NCBI GenBank assembly: GCA_035532035.1
Contig: DATKRS010000033.1
Location: forward strand, 1-64,000
DNA length: 64,000 nucleotides
Direction: 5' to 3'
DNA from: Candidatus Dormiibacterota bacterium
GTDB taxonomy: Bacteria; Vulcanimicrobiota; Vulcanimicrobiia; Vulcanimicrobiales; Vulcanimicrobiaceae
Shown here: positions 40,155-43,003 of the stretch, one piece after another
How the letters are laid out: each line of letters begins with the position of its first letter
How positions within the stretch are numbered: the stretch's first letter is position 1
Notes under the pieces: generated by a model
What the model was told of the DNA's origin: nothing
The model's database searches: none
The model's input: the letters and a program-made list of their open reading frames with translations, nothing else
Program-made: the position numbers and the translations under genes

Positions 40155-41093
40155 TTGCCACGATCGCAAGCGGCCCGACGCCACGATGCCACCGTCCTGA
40201 CGGGCTTTCGCGAGTACCTGCTCCTCGAGAAGCGCCGCGCGGAGCGCACCGTGCGCGAGTACGAATCGGATCTGGATCTGTTCGCGCGGTTCGTCGCGCC
40301 TCGGACGCCCGTCGAGCAGACCTTGGTGGCCGCCACGGTCTCGAACGTGCGCCAGTTCCTCATGGACATGACGCGGCGCGGCCTGAGCGCCGCCGCCGTG
40401 CGGCGACGGATTGCGGCGCTCGGCGCGTTCTTTCGGTATGCGAAGCGCGAAGGATTGCGGCAGGACAATCCGGCGGCGGACGTGGGCAACATCAAGCTGC
40501 CGCGTCGCCTTCCCAAGGCCATCTCAGTCAAGGACGCCGAACGCCTCCTGGCCACCAAGCCAGCGGCGGGAACCTCGGAGTTCCAGCGGCTGCGAGACGG
40601 CGCCATACTCGAGCTTTTCTACGCTTCAGGTATCCGCCGGGCGGAGCTGGTCGGCATCGATCTGGCCGACGTCGACTTCGATCGGCGAACGATCCGCGTC
40701 GTCGGCAAGGGAAACAAGGAGCGCTATGTGTTTTTCAACGACGCGGCTGCAGATGCGCTAAGACGTTACCTGGCGGTGCGACCGCCTGGAGGCGACGGCG
40801 CGCTCTTCGTCAGCCGCCGGCGAAGCCGCCTCAGCTACCCGCAGGTCGGAAACGTCTTTCGTCTCTTCGTGCGATTGAGCGGCTTGGAAGGGAAAATCAC
40901 GCCTCACACGCTACGGCATTCCTTTGCGACGCATCTGCATCAGCGTGGCGTCGACATCATGACGATCAAGGAACTTCTGGGACACGACAGCGTGGCGACG
41001 ACGCAGATCTATGCGAAGGTTACCCTCGAGCACATGCGTCAGGCGTACGAGGAGGCCCATCCCCGCAGCAGGCCAAAGCGTTCGCCGCGATGA
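40155..41093 (+). CDS. Tyrosine recombinase, XerC/XerD type
   Basis: 312 residues, TTG start with AAGGAGAAGG upstream. The N-terminal SAM-like core-binding domain (about 15-105) precedes the catalytic domain with all active residues: Arg161 (GIRRAEL), Lys185 (GKGNKER), His251 and Arg254 (HTLRHS), His277 (LGHDSV) and Tyr286 (TTQIYAKV). Length and order fit the chromosomal XerC/XerD resolvases that act at dif. No integron, phage or transposon genes surround it, so a housekeeping role is likely. Its stop overlaps the downstream lipoprotein start by four bases. Confidence 0.9.
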   Translation: MPRSQAARRHDATVLTGFREYLLLEKRRAERTVREYESDLDLFARFVAPRTPVEQTLVAATVSNVRQFLMDMTRRGLSAAAVRRRIAALGAFFRYAKREGLRQDNPAADVGNIKLPRRLPKAISVKDAERLLATKPAAGTSEFQRLRDGAILELFYASGIRRAELVGIDLADVDFDRRTIRVVGKGNKERYVFFNDAAADALRRYLAVRPPGGDGALFVSRRRSRLSYPQVGNVFRLFVRLSGLEGKITPHTLRHSFATHLHQRGVDIMTIKELLGHDSVATTQIYAKVTLEHMRQAYEEAHPRSRPKRSPR

Positions 41094-41812
41094 CGCCGCG
41101 CCTTCTTCTTCCGCTCGCGCTTTTCGCGGCGCTTACGGCGGGTTGCGCCTCGCAACGTGCCTACGCGACGAGCCTCGGCAGTTTAAAACCGCACAAGCGT
41201 ATGATCGTGCGCATCGCGCGCGGCACCGTCAGTGCGTACGCTCCGCGCATCGGCGAGCCGAGCGATCGATTCACGGTGGAGGCGTTTGCGCGCGGATCTT
41301 CGATGCCGGCGGCACCGGAGATCCGTCCCATCGCCAACGGCATCGAAGTCCTCGCACCCGCACTTGGATCGCTGATCGTGCGCGTGCCCAAAGGCGTCGA
41401 CCTCGAGGTCGTCTCGGGCGGCGGCGACGTGAACGTCACAGACATCTCGGGCAGCGCTCGAGTCTCGCTCGTCTCCGGCACGGCGACGATGATGCTTCCC
41501 GCTTACGGAGAAGCCTCCGTGGCCCGCGCCGGAAGCGTCGACGTGAAGATCGGGGCGCAGTCCTGGCCGGGGACGCTGCGTTTCGTCAATGCCGGCGGCG
41601 ACATCGATCTCTCGATCGAGGAGAATGCTGCATTTCGGGTCCATCTCCACACCGACGACGGGACCATCTTCACGGACTTCAATTTGCGCGGCACCTCGAG
41701 CGGGCGGAGCGAGACGATCGACGGCTCGGTCAACGGCGGTGCGGCGAGCGGAATCGACGTCGAATGCCGGCGCGGCGCAATTCGGCTCTTGCGCCTAGCA
41801 CCGCAGATCTAG
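41090..41812 (+). CDS. Lipoprotein with DUF4097-like beta-solenoid
   Basis: 240 residues. The signal peptide RLLLPLALFAALTAGC has a perfect lipobox (LTAGC). The rest is beta-rich with repeated short strands (GLSIVRVPKG-like, VVSGGGDVNVTDISGSARV, VNAGGDIDLSIEENAAF, VDVECRRGAIRL), the layout of putative-adhesin DUF4097 proteins. Function unknown. The TAG stop lies in the left CTAG copy flanking the 276-bp element. The ATG overlaps the recombinase stop, which is an odd pairing of gene functions. Confidence 0.75.
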   Translation: MTPRLLLPLALFAALTAGCASQRAYATSLGSLKPHKRMIVRIARGTVSAYAPRIGEPSDRFTVEAFARGSSMPAAPEIRPIANGIEVLAPALGSLIVRVPKGVDLEVVSGGGDVNVTDISGSARVSLVSGTATMMLPAYGEASVARAGSVDVKIGAQSWPGTLRFVNAGGDIDLSIEENAAFRVHLHTDDGTIFTDFNLRGTSSGRSETIDGSVNGGAASGIDVECRRGAIRLLRLAPQI

Positions 41813-42088
41813 GGAGCCTCTGATTAATGCGCTGCACCGAGCGCAACGAGCATTTTCGTCGCAGGTCGAGAAGCGAGGAGGGAGCATACTGCACGGCGTC
41901 TGTGACCGACGCAGCGACGACGAGATGCGGCGAAAATGCCGTTGCCCTGCGGGTTTGCGCTCCGAGGGCTCGTCTGCGTTGTCGCCTGCGCGGTCACAGA
42001 GCACCCTGGGTATGCTCCCTTGCAGTCTCCTCGCATCCAAACCCTCGGAGCGTCAAACGATCGGTGCATGGGATTAATCGGAGGCTCC
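41813..42088. mobile_element. 276-bp MITE-like element with terminal inverted repeats and CTAG target duplication
   Basis: The left end GGAGCCTCTGATTAAT (from 41813) mirrors the right end (to 42088) as GGAGCCTCCGATTAAT on the other strand. Matching continues imperfectly inwards (GCACCG at both sides, then GGGAGCATAC and CTGTGACCG with their complements), so the whole element could fold into one long hairpin. CTAG directly flanks both ends (41809-41812 and 42089-42092). There is no transposase; open frames inside are short and have no homology I recognise. It sits exactly between two convergent stop codons and may act as a bidirectional terminator. Confidence 0.75.
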
Positions 42089-43003
42089 CTAGGTCGCGAG
42101 CAATGCCTGCTTCGCCTTCACGAGCCGCACCATGGCGTCGTTATATGGCGTCGGCACGCCGACGCGCCGCCCAAAGGCGACCACCGCGCCGTTGATGTGA
42201 TCGATCTCGCTTGGGTGTCCGGAGGCGAGGTCGAAGGCCATCGAGCTGCGCGCGTCTGCGCCCACTGCGATGACGTCCGTGACGTATTGCCAAGGGTTGA
42301 CGAACGGAAGGTTGATCTTCAGCGCCGTCGCCACGGCTGCGGCCTCTTCCGCAAGCGCCTCCGCGAGACGAGCGGCATTCGCATCCTTGGGGATCACGCC
42401 CGCGTCGCAATCGAGGATCGCCGAGAGCGCGTTGATCGCACAGTTCGCGACGAGCTTTCCCCACAGATGCGGACGAATGTCGTACACGACGGCCGCCTGC
42501 AATCCGCTCGCGGTCAACACGTGAGCGACCGTGCGCGACGCCGACGGCGACGCCGATCCGACGATCGTGTTGCCGCGCCCGGAAGTGTGCACGCGCCCGG
42601 GTGCGGTCGTCACAGCCGACTCGGTCGTGATGCCGAGAATCACCGGTACCGCGCCGCCGAGCGCGGTGCGGATTGCGTCCTCGTTGCCGACGCCGTTCTG
42701 CAGGGAGACGATCGGCGTTACGGGGTCGAGCTCTCCGGCGAAGGGCCGCAGGGCGCGTAGCGTGTCGACGGCCTTCACGAAGAGGAACAATATCTGCGAC
42801 CCGTAGAGTTCTGCGGCGCGCCGGGCGACGCTCACGCGGCGCGACGCCTGGTCGTTGACCGCGAGCCCCTTCTGCTCGATCGTCGCGATCGTTACGCCGT
42901 TCGCATCGAGCATCGTGACGTCGCATGTCTGCGCTAGGTGAAAGCCGAAAAGCGTGCCCATCGCACCCGCGCCGACGATCCCGACCTTGGGGCGCTGCTG
43001 CAT
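42089..43003 (-). CDS. panE: 2-dehydropantoate 2-reductase (ketopantoate reductase)
   Basis: 304 residues. N-terminal NADPH site VGIVGAGAMGTLFGFHLA, then LFLFVKAVDT and VSLQNGVGNEDA, and the C-terminal catalytic region with a lysine in HLWGKLVANCAINALSAI and a glutamate in HPSEIDHINGAVV. It reduces ketopantoate to pantoate for coenzyme A. Last gene of the glmS-mla run, 16 bases after the MCE gene. Its TAG stop lies in the right CTAG of the mobile element. Paralogues act on other 2-keto acids, so the exact substrate is slightly open. Confidence 0.88.
   Translation of the reverse strand: MQQRPKVGIVGAGAMGTLFGFHLAQTCDVTMLDANGVTIATIEQKGLAVNDQASRRVSVARRAAELYGSQILFLFVKAVDTLRALRPFAGELDPVTPIVSLQNGVGNEDAIRTALGGAVPVILGITTESAVTTAPGRVHTSGRGNTIVGSASPSASRTVAHVLTASGLQAAVVYDIRPHLWGKLVANCAINALSAILDCDAGVIPKDANAARLAEALAEEAAAVATALKINLPFVNPWQYVTDVIAVGADARSSMAFDLASGHPSEIDHINGAVVAFGRRVGVPTPYNDAMVRLVKAKQALLAT

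Follow-up and report, generated by a model that had tools for sequence, protein, structure and literature searches.

A repeated element with IS5-type ends and a two-arm fold beside panE in an uncultured Eremiobacterota bacterium

The element between a DUF4097 gene and panE

Within the window (the whole 64,000-nucleotide stretch of DNA analysed here), a plus-strand gene at 41090-41812 matches DUF4097 (toastrack; its start is uncertain, and the domain search took 41024-41809) and is a predicted lipoprotein gene according to the preliminary description of this DNA. It faces panE, encoding 2-dehydropantoate 2-reductase, on the minus strand at 42089-43003 (TIGR00745, 237 bits, cut-off 141). The interval 41809-42092, where the two meet, consists of CTAG (41809-41812), 276 bp (41813-42088) and a second CTAG (42089-42092), as had been described. 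The stop codons had also been placed correctly: the upstream gene takes its stop from the left CTAG (as TAG), and panE, on the minus strand, from the right one (as CTA). A CTAG reads TAG on either strand, which leaves each neighbouring gene with a stop codon, and an insertion at such a target would therefore be tolerated. The claim that both proteins stayed intact after insertion at a CTAG (YTAR) target is supported.

The 276-bp element has a GC content of 62% and is bounded by terminal inverted repeats that extend over 38 nt at 84% complementarity. The 18-nt repeats lie at 41813-41830 on the plus strand (GGAGCCTCTGATTAATGC) and at 42071-42088 on the minus strand, and match each other at 16 of 18 positions. 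As a single strand, the whole element has a predicted fold of -168.5 kcal/mol, against a mean of -110.1 for 200 shuffled sequences (z = -10.7).

Copies, empty sites and target sequences

The preliminary description had proposed searching for copies elsewhere in the genome as a check on its reading of the element as a MITE. The window's genome proved to contain a second full-length copy (82% identity). Matches were also obtained in 4 of 8 genus members (E up to 1e-6) and in 22 of 99 genomes of the family (E up to 1e-5); since copies occur elsewhere, chance is excluded as the origin of the element. A scan for the end sequence across 84,980 species genomes returned 37 stretches, mostly from Candidatus Eremiobacterota and some from other phyla. 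A plasmid search with the whole element gave no match, and the end alone gave weak matches (E about 2) in one enterobacterial plasmid region, without a transposase. As copy lengths (269-278 bp) vary by single bases, no reading frame is kept across copies, including those that overlap the window element.

In several genera, the DUF4097 gene and panE keep the same order, and either a short gap separates them or they overlap. In all six other members of the genus with a readable panE flank, the element is absent beside panE, and in four of these six the DUF4097 gene still adjoins panE. The closest empty relative (G004, panE 96% identical) reads GCAGATATAGGTGCTGTAGGCCTAGCC, with two separate stops 11 bp apart. 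The preliminary description had supposed an insertion into one CTAG that held both stops. Excising the element together with one CTAG does leave a single CTAG with two overlapping stops (the sequence then reads GCAGATCTAGGTCGCGAG), which makes this history possible; however, comparison with relatives, suggested at the time, revealed empty sites but, in the closest of them, no single shared CTAG. Such a CTAG may therefore be one possibility only for the state before insertion, and a small deletion beside the element would give the same arrangement of stops.

Among 29 full-length copies, the terminal inverted repeats match at 16-18 of 18 positions. YTAR is found in the left flank of 17 of these copies, in the right flank of 15 and on both sides in 10, while identical 4-bp flanks occur in 5 of 29, against 2.4 expected from flanks swapped among copies. 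In the ten copies with YTAR on both sides, the last base is G in every left flank and G or A in the right ones, for which reason the duplication may span 4 bp, 3 bp or just TA; judged by its flanks, the window copy would fit all three equally. The second copy in the window's genome, on contig 11, lies at the stop codon of a gene that its sequence suggests to be beta-lactamase-like. In G004, the orthologous gene has at its stop a distinct element of 172 bp, also with IS5-type ends, which supports the target preference. This 172-bp element (L298, 2383-2554) is CTAG-flanked, its right end resembles that of a 1,295-bp IS5-family element (L202), and it is probably an internal-deletion derivative.

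By counts that rest on a simple codon-based gene caller, a neighbour's stop lies exactly in a flank in 9 of 29 copies (31%), which equals the background of 29% at non-genic YTAR sites, and this one-sided coincidence was rejected as a special feature. With the same caller, the stops of both neighbours lie exactly in the flanks in 4 of 29 copies, against 9 of 471 non-genic YTAR sites (p = 0.0046, or 0.025 when the window copy is left out); the numbers are small and the independent cases few, since the window's genome and G008 each contribute two of the four copies. Survival of harmless insertions suffices to explain this excess, and no targeting of stops is needed. At L034, L041, L045, L056 and L129, the called frame of a neighbour enters the element by 11-15 bases and stops within the terminal repeat.

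A two-arm fold kept by compensatory changes

The consensus structure obtained from 26 aligned full-length copies consists of an outer stem and two arms. The outer stem pairs 41813-41842 with 42059-42088 (alignment columns 1-30 with 251-280), and encloses the hairpins of arm A at 41843-41945 (GCAACGAGCATTTTCG...CGAAAATGCCGTTGC; columns 31-136) and arm B at 41953-42058 (GTTTGCGCTCCGAGGG...CCCTCGGAGCGTCAAAC; columns 144-250). At the arm tips, the conserved motifs GGAGGGAGCATA (41877-41888) and TCTGTGACCGAC (41899-41910) of arm A are complementary to TATGCTCCCTTG (42011-42022) and CGCGGTCACAGA (41989-42000) of arm B, respectively. The element had been described earlier as a single hairpin over its whole length; it does fold strongly, but the fold that the family conserves is the outer stem with its two arms.

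This two-arm fold is well supported. Paired cells amount to 95.3%. Column shuffles reach 81.5%, and slid partners 41.5% at most; sliding gives an advantage to a structure that was itself obtained from these data, and shuffling takes no account of relatedness, but the effect is large in both. Changes on both sides were observed in 56 of the 85 pairs of the consensus fold, and in 17 of 26 pairs of the outer stem. Across related species, the family keeps the outer stem and two arms via compensatory changes, while the sequence itself has diverged. The arm tips, complementary across arms, are conserved in sequence and show hardly any covariation.

A very stable fold with strong covariation, located at gene ends, is also what one would expect of an element conserved for an RNA function, as a structured RNA gene or an RNA regulator such as a terminator common to both genes, and the preliminary description had indeed proposed that a hairpin terminates both transcripts. 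That proposal is not supported: no terminator-like site (a GC-rich stem followed by a T run) was found in 41600-42300. Neither a promoter-like site nor an Rfam match at gathering score was found. Moreover, the numbers of GU cells (51) and AC cells (46) do not differ (p = 0.68), although the prediction rules favour GU; the fold, which prefers no strand, is therefore not tied to one RNA strand. The element is absent from the panE locus in congeners, and its inverted-repeat ends and YTAR flanks indicate transposition. We consider conservation for an RNA function improbable; transcripts from either strand may possibly have a function.

Pairing could also persist without selection, through arm-to-arm copying (template switching) within the palindrome. 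The element and each of its arms are inverted repeats, and the equality of GU and AC fits a process at the DNA level, but frequent copying predicts two-sided changes from the start, whereas copies less than 5% apart (a small set, mostly from one genome) show 44 one-sided changed pairs and 1 two-sided. We regard arm-to-arm copying, if slow, as possible but somewhat doubtful. Among copies 25-30% apart, the balance is 922 one-sided to 2374 two-sided changed pairs (72% two-sided). One-sided changes in young copies and two-sided changes in old ones fit a free decay of single copies together with selection on the lineages that spread. Because recent copies gather one-sided changes and long-lived lineages keep pairing, the fold may help the element to propagate. 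A more specific proposal, that outer stem and arms form a DNA structure needed for propagation, that the conserved, mutually inverted arm tips bind a protein, and that lineages losing the fold stop spreading, is speculative and strikes us as rather unlikely.

Copies with other arm contents were also seen. Shorter members that share these ends, 80 to 196 bp long and in many cases CTAG-flanked, occur at L133, L224, L060, L052, L055, L061, L240 and other loci; where the length is about 160-196 bp, they match chiefly the half of the 276-bp element that contains arm A. Palindromes of ~26-34 bp, comprising little beyond the two ends and having YTAR-like flanks, lie at L015/L113 (G000:C11:14428), L103 (G002:C52:5891) and L106 (G012:C190:37258), and are possibly copies that lost both arms. 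In other phyla, palindromic elements with almost identical ends and a YTAR in one flank or both were found in Thiobacillus (L243, 7442-7675), Solimonas (L233, 6656-6785) and Acidobacteriaceae (L241, 5013-5141). G008 (loci L174-L187) holds more than 30 end sequences, and many of its contigs end inside a copy, where the repeat breaks the assembly; an autonomous element hidden at these contig ends was considered and rejected, as the contigs break inside copies of the 276-bp type.

Relation to IS5-family elements and to other MITEs

A candidate source of transposase is found in the genus. G004 harbours a 1,247-bp IS5-family element with ends GGGAAGCTCTGAAGTAG and GGGAAGCTCTGATTTAG and CTAG flanks, and G002 a similar element of 1,238 bp; the first 12 end bases of the IS5-family element are the same as those of the 276-bp element. 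The G004 element contains a 316-aa open frame for an IS5-family transposase (NF033581, 315.8 bits, cut-off 140), 45% identical to InsH of Escherichia coli IS5. In copies of the 276-bp type, the ends are like GGAAGCTCTGAAGAAGTC or GGAGCCTCTGATTAAT, and either form closely resembles the ends of the IS5-family elements found in the genus; the inner parts are unlike. The end sequence is common to the window element, the genus insertion sequences L195, L199 and L202, and E. coli IS5; L195 and L199 are flanked by CTAG as the window element is, and IS5 and the genus elements have their transposase family in common. Whereas IS5, L195, L199 and L202 carry a transposase gene, the 276-bp element shares only the ends.

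The preliminary description had suggested looking for a transposase gene with the same ends. Such IS5-family elements exist in congeners, but the window's own genome, a draft, yielded no intact transposase of the IS5 group and only a 51-aa piece, and no PF01609 match was found in the draft assemblies of the carrier genomes richest in copies. L196, a PF01609 match in the window's genome, was rejected as a helper, having no matching ends. A duplication of TA is one reading of several flanks, and G008 encodes two DDE_3 (IS630-type) proteins, which could suggest movement by an IS630-type transposase targeting TA, or else by a REP-type tyrosine transposase. However, a DDE_3 match is absent in 7 of 8 genomes tested, including the window's, both G008 proteins lie away from the end sequences listed there, and the DDE_3 search of the eight genomes found no IS630-type element with these ends, which match IS5-family elements of the genus. 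An origin of this kind appears very improbable.

The element occurs in repeated copies, many of which have YTAR flanks; it has inverted repeats at its ends and is missing from the panE locus of relatives. The dispersed copies, the empty sites and the congener IS5-family element with matching ends and CTAG flanks support its earlier designation as a MITE, and we conclude that 41813-42088 is very probably a non-autonomous transposable element of the IS5 group inserted at CTAG. An IS5-family transposase would recognise its ends and move it in trans, and would duplicate the target on insertion, perhaps by 4 bp, as published for MITEPsy1.

MITEPsy1 of Pseudomonas syringae pv. phaseolicola has ends GGAAGGTCTGAAAAAGCC, duplicates CTAG or YTAA and has been observed to transpose; it is 100 nt long, confined to Pseudomonas and probably moved by ISPsy2, of the IS5 family (PMC3189936). 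The 276-bp family resembles it in its 18-nt ends (GGAAGGTCTGAAAAAGCC there, GGAAGCTCTGAAGAAGTC here), the lack of a gene inside, a proposed IS5-family helper and its target (YTAR, CTAG among them, here). It differs in its 276-bp length, its two-arm covarying fold and its occurrence in several Eremiobacterota genera, and its mobility is read from copies and empty sites, whereas that of MITEPsy1 was observed. QMITE2 of Coxiella burnetii and other fold-stable bacterial MITEs are likewise small, non-autonomous elements with inverted repeats and a stable predicted fold, but have other ends and 7-9 bp direct repeats (PMC10969869). Bacterial MITEs are described as typically AT-rich (PMC10969869), unlike this GC-rich element. 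REP/REPIN palindromes are also intergenic palindromic repeats; REPs, however, measure 20-40 bp (PMC3733652), whereas the present elements are long, end in IS5-type sequences and have YTAR flanks.

A text search on Eremiobacterota and insertion sequences found no paper on the subject, and this IS5-type MITE family of the Eremiobacterota is new, although ordinary in kind. It provides this phylum with a family of MITEs and a transposase that is likely to act as their helper. Its palindromic target, with a stop on each strand, may allow harmless settling between convergent genes of a compact genome. With many copies, several arm numbers and both young and old lineages, the family offers a natural setting in which to ask whether selection acts on a bacterial MITE's fold as well as on its ends.
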